Shown here piece after piece: positions 30,947 to 52,681 of a stretch of 64,000 nucleotides of DNA; the first letter of the stretch is position 1, and the number at the start of each line of letters is the position of its first letter. A program made the position numbers and the translations under genes. Where the stretch lies: assembly GCA_949296245.1 (NCBI GenBank), contig CASFNW010000019.1:1-64000 (forward strand). The letters are read 5' to 3'. Source of the stretch: an uncultured bacterium (lineage in GTDB: Bacteria > Cyanobacteriota > Vampirovibrionia > Gastranaerophilales > Gastranaerophilaceae). Under the pieces are notes generated by a model. It was not told where the DNA came from, searched no databases, and was given only the letters and a program-made list of their open reading frames with translations.

Positions 30947-30974
30947 ACACTACTTGACATTTGTCAAGTAGTGT
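30947..30974. promoter_or_regulatory. perfect palindromic operator
   Basis: A 12-bp half-site ACACTACTTGAC and its exact complement are separated by ATTT. The core ACTTGACATTTGTAAAGT at 52258, upstream of an XRE-S24 repressor gene, matches this site at 17 of 18 bases. A TTGACA lies inside it, but the nearest -10-like TATAAA is 20 bases away. It is probably a repressor-binding site. Confidence 0.75.
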
Positions 30975-31032
30975 GTCAATATAAATTAGTATTTTGTAAT
31001 GATATATACTTCACTATTAGACCAGGAGGAAA

Positions 31033-31095
31033 ATGGATAATTTAAAAATTGAGACTGTTACACAATGGTTATTAATTTATTTGCATGAAAAATAA
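31033..31095 (+). CDS. 20-codon small ORF behind a strong ribosome site
   Basis: The frame encodes MDNLKIETVTQWLLIYLHEK. AGGAGG lies seven bases before the ATG, the strongest ribosome site in this stretch, and the palindromic operator is 58 bases upstream. The peptide has a hydrophobic middle and charged ends. It could be a leader peptide, a small membrane-active peptide under repressor control, or the start of a lost gene. Confidence 0.4.
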   Translation: MDNLKIETVTQWLLIYLHEK

Positions 31096-31128: not shown

Positions 31129-31638
31129 ATGAAAAAATTTCTTGTTTTATTATCATTAATATTGGTTTCTTCAGGCTGTACTAAAGTACAGGAAAATCAG
31201 ATTGTCACAGAACAACAGCAGTACCCTTCTTGTGAAGAATACTGTAAAGACCACCCTGTTGTTAAAGAACCTGAATTACATGAAACAGACAAACACCCTA
31301 TTGATATTGAAGAAGAGAAATGTATAAAGATTGCGGATACTTCCAATATAGGAATGGGGAATTGTGCACTTAAAGCAACAGAGGATTGGTTTAAAGAAAT
31401 TGATAAGAATTTAATGACTCTAAAACAAATGTTGCCTGCTGAAAAGTATGAAAAAATAGCTGATTCACAGAAAAAATGGGAAAGTTATATAAAATCCGAA
31501 TTTGATGTCAACGAAAATGTTATTTTCTATAAGACAGGAACAATATACTATACTATCAGTGCAGGTCAAAAAGCATATATTGTAAAAGAACGAGCCTTGT
31601 TGTTAAAAAGCTATATACAATATGCAAATGAACCATAA
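31129..31638 (+). CDS. LprI/DUF1311-like lipoprotein
   Basis: 169 residues. A lipoprotein signal peptide ends at the lipobox VSSGC, so the protein is probably anchored in a membrane. A segment with paired cysteines (EEKCIKIADTS..MGNCALKA) and a helical C-terminus with W resembles the LprI/DUF1311 family, some of which inhibit lysozyme. The C-terminal half is related to the broken gene at 44328-44773. No clear ribosome site is seen. It sits next to a muramidase gene, which makes an inhibitor role attractive but unproven. Confidence 0.6.
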   Translation: MKKFLVLLSLILVSSGCTKVQENQIVTEQQQYPSCEEYCKDHPVVKEPELHETDKHPIDIEEEKCIKIADTSNIGMGNCALKATEDWFKEIDKNLMTLKQMLPAEKYEKIADSQKKWESYIKSEFDVNENVIFYKTGTIYYTISAGQKAYIVKERALLLKSYIQYANEP

Positions 31639-31698: not shown

Positions 31699-32519
31699 AT
31701 GAAAATGTACGATAAAAAATTCTATACTTTACTTGATTATGTATTCGCAGATGAAGGTGGTTTTAGCAATCACAAAAATGACAGAGGAGGAAGGACAAAT
31801 TTTGGTATATCTCAAATTGCAATGGATGAGTATACAAGAAAAAGAAATTTGCCGCATAAAGATGTCAAATATATTACAAAAGATGAGGCAGCTAAAATTT
31901 ACTATGAAGACTATTATTTAAAATCAGGAGCAGATAAACAAGAGGATATTAGAGATGCATTAATATTTTTGATACAGCAGTACAATATGGTGATGTTGCT
32001 GCCAGAAGTATGTTCAAAGCAGCGAATAACAATTTTTACACAATGCTTGAAAATAGAAGAAAAACATATTATCAAAGAGTTATAGATAAACCATCTCAAA
32101 AAGAACATCTTCAAGGATGGTTGAATAGAATCGATAATTTAGAAAAGCGAGCGGATGAACTTATAAAAGACCCGGATTTCAGACCTTCTTATGCAGATAC
32201 CAAAACACCTTTTGATGATGACTATACAGGAGGTTTAAAAAAGCTCAATAGTATTTCCGACCCAAAAGAGAAACAAAGATTAAAAAATAAATATCAATAT
32301 TTGTTAAACAAAAACGGTACTCCAACCGGCTATGCCGCTGATATTGACTCTGGTATAGATACACGAACCCCAAGTCAAAGACTCGATGATGAAATCAGAG
32401 AAAAATACAAACGAATGAAAAACCAAAGACTTCAAAGAGTGTTTGGTAAATCAAGCGGTTCATCAGGTAAAGGCAGGTGGGTAACTATTAACGGCAATCA
32501 TGTATTTATAAAGGATTAA
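31699..32519 (+). pseudogene. GH108-type N-acetylmuramidase, frameshifted
   Basis: A peptidoglycan-cleaving enzyme of phage-lysin or secretion-activator type. The first frame (31699-32085) has the catalytic-glutamate region DEGGFSNHKNDRGGRTNFGI. The match then continues in another frame (to 32519) as FFDTAVQYGDVAARSMFKAANNN and beyond. The shift is at the T run near 31966-31970 and one extra T would restore about 273 residues. The C-terminus, GRWVTINGNHVFI, is shared with the protein at 42278. A sequencing error in the T run is possible. AAAGGA precedes the ATG. Confidence 0.75.
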
Positions 32520-39878: not shown

Positions 39879-41414
39879 ATGGTCTATACGTTCAGAAAAG
39901 ATACAAGTATTGGAAATTTAGAAGCAGAGACAGATACTTTTTTAGATGAGTGCTTTGTTGAAACAAATGCTTATAACAATCTTTTAAATTTTGAAAGAAA
40001 TACTAATTTTTTTAAAAGAATAATTGTTGGAAGAACTGGCTCAGGGAAAACGGCTTTATTAAAAAAGCTTACAGAAGCAGATTCTTTATACAAAGAAGAG
40101 GAAATTGAGGCAGAAAAGACTGTTTTTGAATATATAAGAAATAATATTTTTATTAATGAGTTAATAGAAAAAAAAGTTGACTTAAGAATATTTTTTAAAG
40201 CTTTATGGGTTCATGTAATACTTGTAAAAATTATTGAAATACTTACAGATAAAGATACTTTTCTTGATACTTTAATAAGGAAAGATAGAAAAGATTTAAA
40301 AGAATATATAGATAGTTATGAATCTCATTTTTTTGAAGATGAGGCATTGAATGAGATTACAGAAAAATTTACTACCGGAATCAATAGTGAATTATCTAGG
40401 CAACCTGTAAAAGTTGGTGCAGGTATAAATACAGAAGAATATAAACGAACACAATCAATAACCAACAACTATGTTAACAGAGAGTTGATAACTAAACAAC
40501 GAAAAATAGTTAAATATTTAGAACAATTTTATGCTTCTGATAATAAACAAAAAAAGATAATAATAAGTATTGATGATTTAGATAAATCTTGGCTCTTAAA
40601 TCAGAATGTAAAATATGATTTTATAAATGCTTTACTTGACGCTTTAAAAGAATTTTTAGATATATGTTCTGTTAAAGTAATTGTATCTATTAGAACAGAT
40701 ATTTTAGAGGGAGTATATCTTGGAAGTTTAAGACAAGATGAAAAAGATCAATCATTAATTCTTCCAATCGAATGGACAGAGAGAGAAATAAAAGAAGTTT
40801 TAGATAAAAGAATTGCTTTTCTTTTGGAAGACCATTATCAAAAAAAACAAATACCAACTTTTAGCAAAATATTTAGCTTTGAGGTAAAAAATGAGCTTGC
40901 TGATAACTTTATTCTTAAAAGAACAATGTTAAGACCAAGAGATGCAATTGAATTTGTTAATTCCTGTTTTAAATGTGCAGATGGCAATACAGAAATTAAT
41001 GAAAAACATGTAATTGAAGCGGAGGAATATTATTTTTCTTCACGGAAAAAAGCGTTAGAACGTGAATGGCAGAGTATTTATCCAGAAGTACAAACATATA
41101 TCAACTTAATACACAATCTTGGGCAACAAAAATTTAATTTATCAAATTTGTTTAACATTAAAGATTGTATTAAAGAGGAATTATTAAAAACAAATAATGA
41201 TGAAGATCCTTTGGTTCAAACTTTATTAAAACACGATGATCAAAGTATAAAAGAAGTAATTAAAAAACTTTTAGATATATGGTTTTCTATTGGGATTATT
41301 GGTATACATAAAGCTCAAGATTTAATTGTATATTCAAAGTTTGAAAAACAACACCTTGATTTATCTGACTATGAAAAAGAATTTTATATTCATCCTTTAT
41401 TTTGGAGACATTAA
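39879..41414 (+). CDS. P-loop ATPase, Sll1717-like (possible defence gene)
   Basis: 511 residues. Walker A is GRTGSGKTALL (about 51-61) and Walker B is IIISIDDLDKS (about 226-236), followed by a sensor-like VIVSIRTD and LRPRDAIEFVNSC. The N-terminus IGNLEAETDTFLDECF fits the Sll1717 family of P-loop ATPases, which often occur near mobile and defence genes. There is no nuclease or membrane domain, so a partner or the long C-terminal helical part may be the effector. An XRE regulator gene precedes it. AAGGA lies before the ATG. The defence role is an inference. Confidence 0.7.
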   Translation: MVYTFRKDTSIGNLEAETDTFLDECFVETNAYNNLLNFERNTNFFKRIIVGRTGSGKTALLKKLTEADSLYKEEEIEAEKTVFEYIRNNIFINELIEKKVDLRIFFKALWVHVILVKIIEILTDKDTFLDTLIRKDRKDLKEYIDSYESHFFEDEALNEITEKFTTGINSELSRQPVKVGAGINTEEYKRTQSITNNYVNRELITKQRKIVKYLEQFYASDNKQKKIIISIDDLDKSWLLNQNVKYDFINALLDALKEFLDICSVKVIVSIRTDILEGVYLGSLRQDEKDQSLILPIEWTEREIKEVLDKRIAFLLEDHYQKKQIPTFSKIFSFEVKNELADNFILKRTMLRPRDAIEFVNSCFKCADGNTEINEKHVIEAEEYYFSSRKKALEREWQSIYPEVQTYINLIHNLGQQKFNLSNLFNIKDCIKEELLKTNNDEDPLVQTLLKHDDQSIKEVIKKLLDIWFSIGIIGIHKAQDLIVYSKFEKQHLDLSDYEKEFYIHPLFWRH

Positions 41415-41599
41415 TCTTAAACCGTTCGTTTACATTGTATGAATTCATTCAGTAAAAACGGGTGAGTTTTAGTGTATAGATTTATATAATAAAAATAAGA
41501 TTTATACGTATTTATAGGATAATATATATTTTTCGTTTACAGGCAGTTAATTTTTTAATTGCCTTGTTTTTACACGTCAAAAAAATGAAAGGACAGCCT

Positions 41600-42220
41600 A
41601 TGACCGTTTACGCTTACCTCCGTGTCAGTACTTTAGAACAGGACACTGAAAAGAACAAGCTCGAGATTTTGAAGTTCGCCAATGACAAAAGGTTAGGGAA
41701 TGTTGAGTTTATTGAGAGGTTAGGGAATGTTGAGTTTATTGAGGAGAAAGTTACAGGCAAGCTGCATTTCCGTAAGCGTGAGTTAGGGTTGTTGATTGAG
41801 AGAATGGGTATTGATGATATTTTGATTGTACCTGAATTATCGAGACTTGCGAGGTCAATAACACAGATTTTGGAAATACTTAATTTATCAAAAGAAAAAG
41901 GGTTTGTTTTGTATTCGTTAAAAGAAAATTTTGCGAGTAATGACAAAAGTATAACAGCTGTAATAACTTCAACGATATTTGCGCTTGTCGCTCAATTAGA
42001 AAGGGATTTAATCAGTTTGAGAACGAAAGAAGCTTTACAGGCGAAGAAAGCAAGCGGTGTGAAGTTAGGTCGTCCAAAGGGTAAGAAAGGAAAGTCAAAG
42101 CTTGATGTTTACAGGGAAAAAATACTGTATTTAGTGGGTTTGAACGTACCTAAAACAGTTATTGCGAGGGAGTGTGATACTACGGTGGGTAACTTATACA
42201 ACTACCTTAAAACTGTTTAA
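41600..42220 (+). CDS. serine recombinase (resolvase/invertase family)
   Basis: 206 residues. The catalytic serine is in AYLRVSTLEQD (Ser10), the arginines are in VPELSRLARS, and the C-terminus has a helix-turn-helix (NVPKTVIARECDTTVGNLYN). An exact tandem duplication of 27 bp (41690-41743) doubles RLGNVEFIE in the region between the first helix and the catalytic core, which may affect folding. The start at 41600 has AAAGGA before it; a longer frame begins at 41564. It may resolve or invert DNA in the element, or be cargo. Confidence 0.85.
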   Translation: MTVYAYLRVSTLEQDTEKNKLEILKFANDKRLGNVEFIERLGNVEFIEEKVTGKLHFRKRELGLLIERMGIDDILIVPELSRLARSITQILEILNLSKEKGFVLYSLKENFASNDKSITAVITSTIFALVAQLERDLISLRTKEALQAKKASGVKLGRPKGKKGKSKLDVYREKILYLVGLNVPKTVIARECDTTVGNLYNYLKTV

Positions 42221-42277: not shown

Positions 42278-42889
42278 TCAGTCAATATAAACATGATGAC
42301 CGTTTATTGTGACCCAACGACCATTACCTGATGAATTGCTTTGAGAAGCATTACTTTTTCTAAAAACAGGATACCGTCTTTTTCTTTCTTCCTGCATTAG
42401 GCGGTATCTGGATTTTATATCATCAGAAAATTTTTGGGTAGGTGTTCTATATTTTCTTGAATCTGACGGATGTGTAATAAGTTCTCCTTTTCTCATTCTT
42501 TTCATAATCTTATCAGCAATAATGTCGTCCATTTTACCTGAATTAATATGTTTAATAACTTCAATAGGATTGTATTCTCTTCTTATCTCTTTAGAAATTT
42601 CTCTTCCGACCTCGTTATTCCACAAGTCCATATTCTTTTCACCTTCTGGTTGATGATTATTCTTGTCCCCCTGCCATTCATGTATATCACCAGCAAGCTT
42701 ACTTAATCCAACAGTTGATTTTAATGCCAGATCTGCTTGCATAAAAGTATGTTTAAAAGCGTCAGCTTCGTTATTCCAGGCATCGTGTGCTCCTGTACCT
42801 ATTTCAAATCCATATATCTTCTGATATTTTTTTGTTTTCGCATAAATTTCATTGTTATATTCTTTAAAATTGTATTTTGTGTTACTCAT
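42278..42889 (-). CDS. DUF6973-like protein with GRWVTING C-terminal module
   Basis: 203 residues. NEADAFKHTFMQADLAL and EKNMDLWNNEVGREI match the His/Asp/Asn pattern of the DUF6973-type domain, found in toxin-like and mobile-element proteins. The last 60 residues (RTPTQKFSDDIKSRYRLM to GRWVTINGHHVYI) are related to the end of the GH108 protein at 31699. There is no signal peptide. It may be an effector fused to a sorting or processing tail; this is inference. Confidence 0.65.
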   Translation of the reverse strand: MSNTKYNFKEYNNEIYAKTKKYQKIYGFEIGTGAHDAWNNEADAFKHTFMQADLALKSTVGLSKLAGDIHEWQGDKNNHQPEGEKNMDLWNNEVGREISKEIRREYNPIEVIKHINSGKMDDIIADKIMKRMRKGELITHPSDSRKYRTPTQKFSDDIKSRYRLMQEERKRRYPVFRKSNASQSNSSGNGRWVTINGHHVYID

Positions 42890-42926: not shown

Positions 42927-43343
42927 ATGAAAAAAATTAAGCAATATTTTTCACTAAATTTATTGTCGTTATCAGGTTACATTCTTGCCATATGTTTTTT
43001 ATTAATAATTTTTTATTTTTATCCTCAAGCTTTAGAAGAAAGTCTAAAAAACGGTCCGACAGATAATTTTGAAATTACTGTCGGTCTTTTTCTGTGGCTT
43101 ATAAACATCATTAAATATTTTTTAGCAATTGATGCAACACTTTTGGTTTTAACATTTGTAGAATCAAAAATTTATAAGTGTAACCAAGTTTTATATGACA
43201 AATTTTTTAATAATATACCCGATAAAATTAAAGAAATTCATACAATATTATTCTATACAGGAATAGTCTTTGCTTTAATTCCTGTTATTCTGTTAATACT
43301 TTTTATTTTGAATATTATTGTTGAATTTATTTTCCTTTATTAA
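42927..43343 (+). CDS. small membrane protein
   Basis: 138 residues with three hydrophobic segments: near the N-terminus (YILAICFLLIIFYF), middle (FLWLINIIKYFLAIDATLLVL) and C-terminus (IVFALIPVILLILFIL). It diverges from the DUF6973-like gene with a 37-base gap. In toxin systems such a gene can be an immunity protein, but divergent orientation is unusual for that. No family was recognised. Confidence 0.55.
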   Translation: MKKIKQYFSLNLLSLSGYILAICFLLIIFYFYPQALEESLKNGPTDNFEITVGLFLWLINIIKYFLAIDATLLVLTFVESKIYKCNQVLYDKFFNNIPDKIKEIHTILFYTGIVFALIPVILLILFILNIIVEFIFLY

Positions 43344-44923: not shown

Positions 44924-45664
44924 ATGAAAGACAAACGGGTTAACATACCAAAGGAATTTAACAGGTTATTACATGAGGTTGATACCTCAAAATCAGTGTC
45001 AGAAATTTTTAATGATTTTTTGACGTTATCAATTTACTCAATAGCCCAACCTTTTTACAGGTCACAAATTATTGAAGAAAAATATTTAAACACGGCTAAA
45101 AAATATTCCAGAAAACAGCTTGATTACTTTGCTGCAATGAACGCTTACACTTTGATTTCACTTGATATGGGAATGAAAGATTTTTTAGGTGAAATGTTTA
45201 ATATGAACGGTCTTGGAGAACACAGAAAAGGTCAATTTTTCACACCATACCATGTCAGTAAACTAATGGGGAGACTACACTGCATAAATCTAAAGGTAGA
45301 TATTGAAAACAAAGATTTTATCACAATGTGTGAACCGTGTTGTGGTAGTGGCGGTATGGTTATTGCCTTTGCGGATTGTATGAAAGAGGAAGGAATAAAT
45401 TTTCAACAGAAATTATATGTAGAGGCAATGGATATTGAAGAAATATGTTATAAAATGGCTTATTTACAGCTGTCTTTGTTAGGAATAGCCGCAAAAGTCC
45501 AACTTGGAGACAGTTTAACACTGAAGGTAAAAGAAACATTATACACACCGATGTTTTTTATCAATGGGTTTTACAGACGACTCAAAGAATTTAAAGAAAT
45601 TGAAGAAGTACAAAGTGGTGAACCTGTACAATTAAGGCTAATTGATGAGGAAATCAGAATTTAA
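44924..45664 (+). CDS. N6-adenine DNA methyltransferase-like protein lacking NPPY
   Basis: 246 residues resembling the M-subunit catalytic domain of type I restriction systems: KGQFFTPYHVSKLMG and the SAM site CEPCCGSGGMVIA are clear, followed by VEAMDIEEICYKMAYLQLSL. The [DN]PP[YF] catalytic motif expected after LGDSLTL is absent, replaced by KVKETLYTPMFF. Similar short proteins occur in integrative elements, and the function is unclear. The next gene overlaps its end. Confidence 0.7.
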   Translation: MKDKRVNIPKEFNRLLHEVDTSKSVSEIFNDFLTLSIYSIAQPFYRSQIIEEKYLNTAKKYSRKQLDYFAAMNAYTLISLDMGMKDFLGEMFNMNGLGEHRKGQFFTPYHVSKLMGRLHCINLKVDIENKDFITMCEPCCGSGGMVIAFADCMKEEGINFQQKLYVEAMDIEEICYKMAYLQLSLLGIAAKVQLGDSLTLKVKETLYTPMFFINGFYRRLKEFKEIEEVQSGEPVQLRLIDEEIRI

Positions 45665-46187: not shown

Positions 46188-46369
46188 AAATGGTCCATAA
46201 AATATGTAAAAATCTGTAAATTTTAAATTTTACTCATAGATTTGTATGGAAATAAATTAATTTTTATTATTTTGGTTTGATTTCAATAAATCTATATGGG
46301 TGAAAGTGTTGCGTGCGTTGACTTTAAGCTTCTTACGACGTGATAATTAATCAAAAGGAGCAGATAAAA

Positions 46370-47398
46370 ATGTCAGTCTATAAACATAAAAACGGTCGCT
46401 GGTATTATAAATTTGTTATTAAAGGTCAACAGTATCACAAAGCAATTCCTGAAGCTGTTGATAAAAAAACTGCTGAAATGGCGGAAGTTAGAATAAAATC
46501 AGACCTGTTACAGGGTAAATATGACCTTGTTGAAAATAAAGGTACACAGCCTTTTTCTGTGATTGTTGATATGTTTATAGAATACGCAAAAAACAATAGA
46601 ACAGGCTGGAAAAATGATATGTCAGAGGTGAATATTTTAAAAAATTTCTTTAAAAATACGCCGTTAAAAGATATAACACCGAAGAAAATAGAACAGTACA
46701 GAAAATTTAGAAAAGATGAAAACGGTGTAAAACCTGCGACTATTAATAGAGAAGTCGGGATTTTAAGAAGAATGTTTGCTCTTGCGATTAAAGAAAATAT
46801 GGTCAAAGAAAATCCCTGTTTAGCAGTCAATTTGACACCTTTAAAAGTAGATAACATAAAAGAGCGATTTTTAACAAAAAAAGAAGAAGAAAGATTACTT
46901 GAAAACTGTACTGGTGATTTTACTTATCTCAGACCGATTATTAAATGTGCCTTACTTACAGGTATGAGACGGGGTGAGATTATGGAGTTACGGTGGAGCT
47001 TGAATGTAGATTTAAAAAACAGGTGTATCAATCTTTTAAAAACTAAAAATAATAAAATCCGTAAGATACCTATATGTAATGAGCTAATGGCAATTTTTAA
47101 GGAACTCAAACAAAACGCCATATCTGATTATGTTTTCACCAATCCTGTTACTCAAACAGGTTATAAATATCTGTCTAAAGCCTTTCGTAATGTATGTAAA
47201 AAAGCTGAAATTACGAATTTGACTTTTCATGGATTACGACACACCAGTGCCACAAGAATGGTTGCAGCTGGTATTGACCTTGTAGTTGTAAAAGAAATTT
47301 TAGGACACGCGGATTTAAAAACTACTCAAAGATATGCTCATCCTGTTCCTGAAAGGAAATTAAAAGCAATTGAAGCACTTGAAAATTACAGTGATTAA
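46370..47398 (+). CDS. int: tyrosine integrase of the element
   Basis: 342 residues. An N-terminal AP2-like arm-binding domain (YKHKNGRWYYKFVIKGQQY) and a SAM-like core-binding domain precede the catalytic domain with the first Arg in LTGMRRGEIMELRW (about 199), HGLRHTSATRM (about 286) and LGHADLKTTQRYAH with the nucleophilic Tyr (about 321). The ATG at 46370 has AAGGAG nine bases upstream. The gene ends 121 bases before the intact att/tRNA site, as expected for site-specific integration in tRNA-Gly. Confidence 0.95.
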   Translation: MSVYKHKNGRWYYKFVIKGQQYHKAIPEAVDKKTAEMAEVRIKSDLLQGKYDLVENKGTQPFSVIVDMFIEYAKNNRTGWKNDMSEVNILKNFFKNTPLKDITPKKIEQYRKFRKDENGVKPATINREVGILRRMFALAIKENMVKENPCLAVNLTPLKVDNIKERFLTKKEEERLLENCTGDFTYLRPIIKCALLTGMRRGEIMELRWSLNVDLKNRCINLLKTKNNKIRKIPICNELMAIFKELKQNAISDYVFTNPVTQTGYKYLSKAFRNVCKKAEITNLTFHGLRHTSATRMVAAGIDLVVVKEILGHADLKTTQRYAHPVPERKLKAIEALENYSD

Positions 47399-51557: not shown

Positions 51558-52199
51558 TTATTTTGCAACACGCCCCCACCAGCGGATTTCACCTATAACT
51601 TCAAAGTCATAATCACTACATTTTGAAAGATCGATTTCAAAACTCCTGTATTTTGCATTGTCTGACACAACAACAACAGTGTTTGGCGGAATTTTTTGGA
51701 GTCTTTTTGCATAAAGCTGGTTTTCAATCCTCACACAGTATATTTTTCCGTCGTAAATTTCTTTTTTGGAATGGTCTACAAGCAGGCTGTCTCCGCCTTC
51801 TATTGTCGGCATCATACTGTCCCCCTGTGCAAAAATCATTTCCAAATGACAAGTATTTCCGCCCAGATCCCTTGCAAGCTGTTTACTTATTGAATATGTG
51901 GCTGTTTGGCTTTCATTATATACAGTAACGCCGTAACCCATACTTGCCGATACTTCACCCCTTACCGGTATAGAGATGCAATCTTCATCATCTTTTGTAT
52001 TTAATGCATTGTACTTTGCAGTTGCAAGATTTGTGCCGAAAAAATCATTAATGCGGTTTAGCTGTTCGCAGGTAAGCTCTTTGTCTTTAATTTGATTTGC
52101 ATATTGTCTTGTAACATTCATTGCTTTTGCTATATCGGTATAGCTGATTTTCTTTTTTAATATACCTGTGAGTTCTTCTATAACCTCATATAGTTTCAT
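51558..52199 (-). CDS. XRE-family repressor with S24 (LexA/CI-like) peptidase domain
   Basis: 213 residues. An N-terminal Cro/CI-type helix-turn-helix (YTDIAKAMNVTRQYANQIK) is followed by an S24 self-cleavage domain with the Ser in FAQGDSMMPTIEGGDSLLVD and the Lys in LYAKRLQ. This fold is typical of phage-type repressors that fall when the SOS response starts. AAGGGAG precedes the ATG. A matching operator lies at 52258-52275 and another at 30947, so it may control both itself and element genes. Confidence 0.9.
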   Translation of the reverse strand: MKLYEVIEELTGILKKKISYTDIAKAMNVTRQYANQIKDKELTCEQLNRINDFFGTNLATAKYNALNTKDDEDCISIPVRGEVSASMGYGVTVYNESQTATYSISKQLARDLGGNTCHLEMIFAQGDSMMPTIEGGDSLLVDHSKKEIYDGKIYCVRIENQLYAKRLQKIPPNTVVVVSDNAKYRSFEIDLSKCSDYDFEVIGEIRWWGRVAK

Positions 52200-52257
52200 A
52201 TCTGCTCCCTTAATGACCTTATATATTTCCGCTTGTTATTTACGATTATAAAATATT

Positions 52258-52288
52258 ACTTGACATTTGTAAAGTATGTGCGTATAAT
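52258..52288 (+). promoter_or_regulatory. consensus promoter overlapped by an operator
   Basis: TTGACA (52260-52265) and TATAAT (52283-52288) are separated by 17 bases, a perfect sigma-70-type promoter pointing right. The operator core ACTTGACATTTGTAAAGT (52258-52275) covers the -35 box and is imperfectly palindromic, matching the perfect palindrome at 30947. The repressor gene begins 59 bases to the left on the other strand. Confidence 0.85.
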
Positions 52289-52314: not shown

Positions 52315-52380
52315 TTTAAAGAGAAGGTTAAAAAAATAGCCTGACCCCCGAGATCAGGCAAGATATATACTTCTCTTTTA
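52315..52380 (+). ncRNA. structured leader segment
   Basis: The promoter-proximal transcript can fold: TTAAAGAGAAG near 52316 pairs with CTTCTCTTTTAA near 52370, enclosing the hairpin GCCTGA (52339-52344) with TCAGGC (52354-52359). It precedes the small Cys-rich ORF. Confidence 0.45.
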
Positions 52381-52471
52381 AGATAGCACAAATATTTTTT
52401 TTAGGCAATGAAAAGAAGTTTATTATTTATATTAAAGCTATACAGGAGGTTTAGATATATACTTACAAAAA

Positions 52472-52681
52472 TTGAATAAAGATATATACAATACAAAAAT
52501 TCTTCTTGGCATGCTCGATATTGCGTTATCGCTTCTTGCGGAAAACAATATATGTTCTTATTGTAAAATTTGCAACTGCAAAGATAACAGATGCAGTGAA
52601 GAAGTTTTTTGCAAAAATTTTTTATTTGAGGGGATTTTAAAAAGAACCGGAGTGAAAATTTCCGGAATAATATTGCGATAA
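52472..52681 (+). CDS. small Cys-rich protein, start uncertain
   Basis: 69 codons from a TTG. The middle has CSYCKICNCKDNRCSEEVFC, a cysteine cluster that may bind zinc, after a hydrophobic stretch (ILLGMLDIALSLLA). A strong AGGAGG (52444-52449) lies 22 bases before the TTG. The only codon at the normal distance is ATA (52457), so the true start is unclear. It is driven by the promoter at 52258 under the S24 repressor, which supports expression. Confidence 0.5.
   Translation: MNKDIYNTKILLGMLDIALSLLAENNICSYCKICNCKDNRCSEEVFCKNFLFEGILKRTGVKISGIILR

Follow-up and report, generated by a model that had tools for sequence, protein, structure and literature searches.

What links a perfect inverted repeat near 31 kb with a phage-type repressor gene near 52 kb, and what would such a repressor keep silent? 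The window analysed here (64,000 nucleotides of contig C19, part of a 2.03-Mb draft genome of the Gastranaerophilales) carries both, and a first-pass annotation had proposed that one repressor controls the two distant loci. Comparison with a genus set of 23 genomes, all of them drafts so that absences are soft, leads us to a wider proposal, to which we assign a probability of roughly 60%: a two-layer lock may be formed by the S24 repressor, which is chromosomal and of phage type, and by a small RNA whose gene lies next to it. Such a lock would keep two groups of phage-derived genes silent, antibacterial enzyme cassettes and a complete head-tail gene cluster. The basis of this proposal, obtained by sequence comparison, consists of a shared operator, an RNA element, complements of the RNA seed and one matching change of RNA and target. 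The features of the window are compiled in Table 1.

Table 1. Positions of the regulatory elements and genes discussed in the text
Feature	Position	Strand	Description
Operator O2	30947..30974	.	perfect dyad, 13-bp arms; core ACTTGACATTTGTCAAGT at 30952-30969; homologous dyads in 15 cassette leaders
Seed complement GATATATACTTC	31001..31012	+	perfect 12-nt complement of the candidate small RNA's 5′ end; 48 bp after start of 16-bp operator core
SD AGGAGG (31024-31029) and mini-ORF MDNLKIETVTQWLLIYLHEK (31033-31095)	31024..31095	+	heads one cassette type, conserved; ORF encodes 20 aa
LprI-domain (lysozyme-inhibitor) lipoprotein	31129..31638	+	putative immunity protein; PF07007, 7e-7
GH108 muramidase effector	31699..32519	+	C-terminal tag ...GKGRWVTINGNHVFI; frameshifted here, intact in relatives (e.g. 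G014 C4:1100-1915)
DUF6973 effector	42278..42889	-	same C-terminal tag as GH108 effector; PF22322, 6.5e-11
138-aa hydrophobic (probable membrane) protein	42927..43343	+	putative immunity partner, divergent from DUF6973 gene; same pairing in L155-L159
XRE-S24 repressor	51558..52199	-	XRE/Peptidase_S24 (PF00717, 8e-18); orthologous in 19/23 genus genomes
Operator O1 (52258-52275) and two face-to-face promoters	52245..52288	.	+ TTGACA-17-TATAAT (12/12), divergent, rightward; - TTTACA-17-TATAAT (11/12), the repressor's own, leftward into S24 gene
Candidate small RNA, about 43 nt	52331..52373	-	seed GAAGUAUAUAUC, 1-3-nt linker, terminator hairpin GCCUGAUCUCGGGGGUCAGGC (52359-52339), U tract; antisense to divergent mRNA
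Putative small-RNA promoter	52374..52408	-	TTGCCT-17-TATCTT, extended -10 TGnTA in alignment
SD AGGAGG followed by seed complement GATATATACTTA	52444..52465	+	start of small protein
Small Cys-rich protein, about 69 aa	52472..52681	+	CxxC...C...C; start codon uncertain, possibly TTG; genus-conserved

An operator shared by the repressor locus and effector-immunity cassettes

The dyad ACACTACTTGACATTTGTCAAGTAGTGT is found exactly where the first-pass annotation had placed a perfect inverted repeat, except that its arms, given there as 12 bp, are one base pair longer and enclose a 2-bp centre. As had been claimed, its 18-bp core agrees at 17 of 18 positions with a site beside the repressor gene, and this site, said to cover the -35 box next to that gene, takes in the -35 boxes of the two promoters that face each other at the XRE-S24 locus. 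Within the window, four strand-matches to the operator core with up to three mismatches were found against 0.16 expected. The scan of the 2.03-Mb genome with ACTTGACATTTGTCAAGT at up to two mismatches, which had been suggested as a check, returned the sites at 30952 and 52258 only, so that many operators across the genome are ruled out; exactly three mismatches are present in two further sites genome-wide. In the orthologous loci of the genus the operator again lies between the same two face-to-face promoters upstream of the S24 orthologues, and the second type of operator site is confined to genomes that also have the S24 gene. The idea of one repressor acting on two loci is thus backed by the orthologous operator positions, by the co-occurrence with S24 and by the lack of any other strong site in the genome. 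The exact operator also occurs in viral contigs, in 55 stretches from diverse contigs. When the window dyad is set beside the 14 leaders homologous to it, paired changes are apparent at three positions in the outer arms of the cassette operator (for example ACACTAC/GTAGTGT, ACATTAC/GTAATGT, ACGCTAC/GTAGCGT); in what are too few sequences, they are suggestive of a hairpin or of a strict dyad requirement beyond the conserved core.

Orthologues of the repressor with at least 64% identity account for the 19 genomes listed in Table 1. The Ser-Lys dyad of the S24 peptidase domain is kept in them (GDSM and YAKRL/YVKRL). The expected scissile bond is Met-Gly, embedded in ASMGYG in nearly all genus orthologues (variants ASTGYG and ASMGFG), and the Ala-Gly or Cys-Gly bond of cleavable LexA/CI-type repressors is not present among them. 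Because the residue preceding the expected scissile glycine is methionine (threonine in one orthologue, giving Thr-Gly at the likely bond), RecA-driven cleavage may not apply to S24, which bears on the SOS-like response suggested earlier. Against the LexA equivalog TIGR00498 the protein scores 21.6 bits, the cut-off being 110.95. LexA candidates elsewhere in the genus were rejected, as the PF01726 matches were weak and came from other short proteins in other contexts.

The 31-kb locus had been taken for the remains of a mobile element. It is indeed decayed, but its identity is a different one: it is best described as a muramidase/LprI effector-immunity cassette with a repeated leader and a frameshifted effector. 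A longer leader search yielded 15 cassette-leader copies with the RNA site (see below) in 10 genomes, all having S24 and the small RNA; this co-occurrence (10/10 versus 19/23 overall, p about 0.08) could be due to chance. The cassette enzymes, GH108 muramidase, DUF6973 and M15 peptidase, share a common C-terminal tag ending GKGRWVTINGNHVFIED and likely act on peptidoglycan or are of unassigned type, and their partners are LprI lysozyme-inhibitor lipoproteins or hydrophobic proteins of ~138 aa. Toxin N-terminal domains that vary while the tag stays constant, with a specific immunity gene next to each, correspond to an effector-immunity organisation, toxicity and immunity being putative. The tagged GH108 effector has no relative in viral contigs. 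A sigma-70 promoter scan of the cassette leader found none, the distance of 20 bp from TTGACA to TATAAA being poor by sigma-70 rules, and the second cassette of the window (42.3-43.3 kb) has no detectable leader. The inter-cassette genes of the window (39879-41414, 41564-42220, 44924-45664 and 46340-47398) comprise a Sll1717-family P-loop ATPase, a serine recombinase-like gene, an N6-adenine methyltransferase fragment and a tyrosine integrase-like gene; this stretch reads as a mobile island with defence-like genes.

A candidate small RNA beside the repressor

On the repressor strand, the orthologous regions contain an element that is far more conserved than its surroundings and consists of GAAGTATATATC, a linker of 1-3 nt, GCCTGATCTCGGGGGTCAGGC and a T run. 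In the window its seed and terminator occupy 52339-52373. Among the 18 aligned loci its first 11 nucleotides are identical and the twelfth differs in G005 only; changes in the hairpin are confined to G005 and to a single insertion in G009. Conservation of most flanking columns is close to 50%. Upstream, at the right distance, stand a TTG at -35 and an extended -10. The hairpin, an intrinsic terminator, folds at -13.6 kcal/mol (z -2.9), and its stem carries a compensated change in G005 (GCCTAA...TTAGGC). The element is near-invariant in 19 of the 23 genomes (18 by pattern plus the G009 variant), which are exactly those with an S24 orthologue. From the conservation, the putative upstream promoter, the terminator, the compensated stem and the co-occurrence with S24 we infer a previously undescribed small RNA of about 43 nt. 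At the sequence level the element shows the characteristics of a base-pairing bacterial small RNA: a putative promoter of its own, a conserved seed, an intrinsic terminator and complements in the leaders of several mRNAs that are kept by compatible changes. The element is without a match above threshold in Rfam, its hairpin has none in viral contigs, and outside the genus it is absent elsewhere in the family sample. In a species-level genome collection it was found in 16 contigs, all from Candidatus Gastranaerophilales except one labelled 'uncultured bacterium' that matches a genus genome. The literature searched contained no report of such a small RNA, or of a gene transfer agent, in this lineage.

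The RNA gene lies wholly antisense inside the transcript expected from the divergent S24-controlled promoter. Such nesting, together with divergent promoters on a common operator and the matches of S24 to phage repressor PHROGs, would also be expected if the locus were the remnant of a lambdoid immunity region, with S24 as CI, the divergent promoter as PR and the RNA as an OOP-like antisense RNA now devoid of any function in trans. The lambda immunity region with OOP likewise combines a repressor gene, a divergent promoter and a short terminated antisense RNA (PMC5869508). Here, however, the RNA overlaps a 5′ leader, its seed matches dispersed chromosomal targets, and cro, cII and phage replication genes are absent at the locus. 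As the invariance of the element in 19 genomes and the constrained trans-complementary sites argue for a present function, we regard a functionless remnant as quite unlikely.

In this genome the seed complement GATATATACTT occurs five times. Two copies belong to the repressor region, one lying opposite the RNA and one at the start of the divergent small protein; the third, at 31001, follows the second operator, the fourth precedes a gene on contig C11, and the fifth, in clpX, is a chance match. As a bare 11-mer the complement is hardly enriched genome-wide (107 versus 84 reversed controls). The recurrent context GTTACAGATATATACTTTTTATAACT was set aside; its sequence looks like a conserved promoter of the opposite strand. 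Another intergenic motif that recurs, GTTACAGATATATACTTTTTATAACTnnAATATGGCAATTTT, is present about once per genome (L165, L172, L175, L192, L197, L202, L207, L208, L210, L216, L221, L227, L229) and is probably a promoter on the other strand.

Complements of the RNA seed in putative target leaders

The gene on C11 encodes the KFYCCG protein. In all 19 orthologues (those above 50% identity) the leader contains an 11-12-nt complement of the RNA at -27 to -36 from the start codon, compared with 0 of 324 control start regions for a 12-nt and 2 of 324 for an 11-nt complement. The site variants GATATGTACTTC and GGTATATACTTC keep pairing via G-U wobbles, and in G005 the site AATATATACTTC matches that genome's own RNA variant GAAGUAUAUAUU, which constitutes the one matching change of RNA and target. 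Two orthologues from the sister genus, where the RNA was not found, lack the site; G004 and G017 retain it, and the RNA and the S24 orthologue were not found in their draft assemblies. The KFYCCG mRNA (G000 C11:735-900; orthologues L262-L280) has a long conserved leader, GTAAACTGTTTGCAAAAAGTTGTAAGCACAATTTACA, which could form a hairpin upstream of the small-RNA site.

These sites also bear on an interpretation confined to DNA, in which S24 regulates the cassettes as well as its own locus, the 35-bp element serves as an intrinsic terminator that insulates the divergent genes, and GATATATACTT works as a DNA or promoter element. The 35-bp element is a good terminator, but as such it would need neither an invariant 12-nt 5′ stretch nor the putative promoter that directly precedes it. 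AT-rich promoters often contain TATATA-type motifs, and the 11-mer is also found in unrelated recurrent contexts; the KFYCCG sites, however, are placed close to the start codon, at least ~90 nt downstream of a conserved promoter-like TATATA region, and the G-U-compatible variation and the matching change in G005 fit RNA pairing rather than a DNA motif. A regulon restricted to DNA therefore appears unlikely, if the least so of the alternatives considered.

The KFYCCG protein itself is unusual (162 aa, Cys-rich), and its AlphaFold model (mean pLDDT 63, mostly beta) was too weak for a fold search. Its gene heads a cluster of tail chaperone-like, tape-measure, portal, major capsid, head-tail adaptor, major tail and terminase genes, which also includes NlpC/P60, J-type tail tip and GH108 endolysin genes. 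For pairs with measurable dS, dN/dS is about 0.02-0.24 for the terminase, tail tip, capsid, endolysin and KFYCCG genes; many other pairs of the cluster are saturated at synonymous sites and stand outside this range. Head and tail genes (portal, capsid, terminase, tail, endolysin) are conserved and under purifying selection, and no integrase or replication genes were recognised in the searched part of the ORFs listed in L316-L321. On these grounds the cluster appears GTA-like. With gene transfer agents such as CcGTA with RogA/GafYZ it has in common the single-copy head-tail genes conserved under purifying selection; it would also share regulation by the host and may share the lack of replication genes, none having been recognised among the ORFs searched (PMC9632790, PMC11150451). 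Where CcGTA has GafYZ, the lead gene here would be under a small RNA, and the cluster differs in gene order and in its Cys-rich lead protein. In this genome the cluster on contig C43 is without portal and capsid genes, by loss or assembly, and terminases closely related to those of the cluster are patchy in other genera. An S24 operator before the cluster is not general, a near match being present only in G013 and G002; an influence of S24 there would therefore have to go through the RNA.

Directly 3′ of the stop codon of the cluster endolysin gene and before its terminator, the sequence of the RNA's 5′ end recurs as AGTATATATC (GAAGTATATATC in three) at L178, L193, L199 and L231 (G010, G013, G017, G016) and more weakly at L247-L249; a 3′-UTR RNA sharing the small-RNA seed in this one subclade is possible. 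At L317:2301-2963 a DUF6973 protein with a different C-terminal end is encoded directly beside the cluster terminase genes, a possible link between effectors and particle.

In the cassette leaders the 48-bp distance between operator and RNA site is the same in all six other exact-operator cassettes, the G018 site being TATATATACTTC. In the DUF6973 cassettes the start of the effector gene is ~550 bp farther downstream, with a gene of opposite orientation in between, which makes a direct translational block by the RNA unclear there. At the translation start of the divergent small protein, near the place of ribosome entry, 11-12 nt are complementary to the seed in five loci; one subclade has partial complementarity only and a few genomes have none. 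In several genomes (window 52444-52480; orthologues L046-L050) this protein is without an ATG at the expected distance from AGGAGG, which suggests a TTG or rarer start codon (ATA is in frame in several genomes).

A small protein opposed by a small RNA recalls the type I toxin-antitoxin system TisB/IstR-1 of E. coli, where an SOS-type repressor is combined with a constitutive sRNA of opposing action, which base-pairs with the mRNA of a small protein ahead of its start codon (PMC8145889). By analogy, the small peptides or the Cys-rich protein would be toxins, the RNA the antitoxin and the sites in the phage cluster secondary. The best conserved RNA target is, however, the lead gene of a structural cluster, and the small protein is conserved and Cys-rich rather than a short hydrophobic peptide. 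The present system differs further in that the RNA has multiple trans targets including the head-tail cluster, that its gene is antisense within the transcript of the repressed divergent promoter, and that the repressor is of the phage XRE-S24 type instead of LexA. We consider a toxin-antitoxin module the least likely of the alternatives.

A scenario for the proposed two-layer lock

Consistent with these comparisons, we return to the two-layer lock and propose the following scenario. S24 would bind ACTTGACAnnTGTmAAGT and thereby repress its own gene, the divergent promoter and the promoters of the effector-immunity cassettes. The ~43-nt RNA, presumably constitutive, would pair via its 5′ GAAGUAUAUAUC with the same cassette mRNAs in their leaders and with the first gene of the domesticated head-tail (GTA-like) cluster; in some genomes the divergent small-protein mRNA would be a further partner. 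Such pairing, which the comparison supports, might lower the translation or stability of the targets. When a trigger inactivates S24, the divergent transcript would cross the RNA gene in antisense; judging from this geometry, it might interfere with the RNA and titrate it, such that release of the repressor also frees the RNA lock. Expression of the RNA, its inhibition of translation and the release of its lock by the antisense transcript are thus postulated steps of the scenario.

The layout also resembles the control of colicin E2 by LexA plus CsrA/sRNA, in which antibacterial proteins with immunity are restrained both transcriptionally and post-transcriptionally (PMC5157957); here, however, the RNA would pair directly with mRNA instead of acting on CsrA, the cassettes form arrays with one repeated leader, and the system is chromosomal. 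The locus resembles TisB/IstR-1, lambda/OOP, colicin E2 and host-controlled gene transfer agents, but the tests made do not place it in any of them: the LexA score is below the cut-off, the likely scissile bond is of another type and the small protein is no short hydrophobic peptide; the likeness to gene transfer agents concerns gene content.

More tentatively, and with distinctly less confidence than for the lock itself, we envisage that a genus of gut Gastranaerophilales has retained a phage particle cluster in domesticated form (GTA- or tailocin-like), together with arrays of tagged effectors directed at peptidoglycan. A single invariant 43-nt RNA, embedded antisense in an S24-repressed transcript, would lock the two. 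The loss of one repressor would then lift both locks, and the tagged effectors may be cargo of the particle. A two-layer lock of this sort has not been described for this lineage. If true, the proposal would mean that a small-RNA regulon is defined for the first time in the non-photosynthetic sister lineage of Cyanobacteria, and that this lineage has a candidate gene-transfer-agent-like cluster; it would also provide a simple circuit in which an antisense-nested RNA couples the release of a repressor to the release of a translational block.
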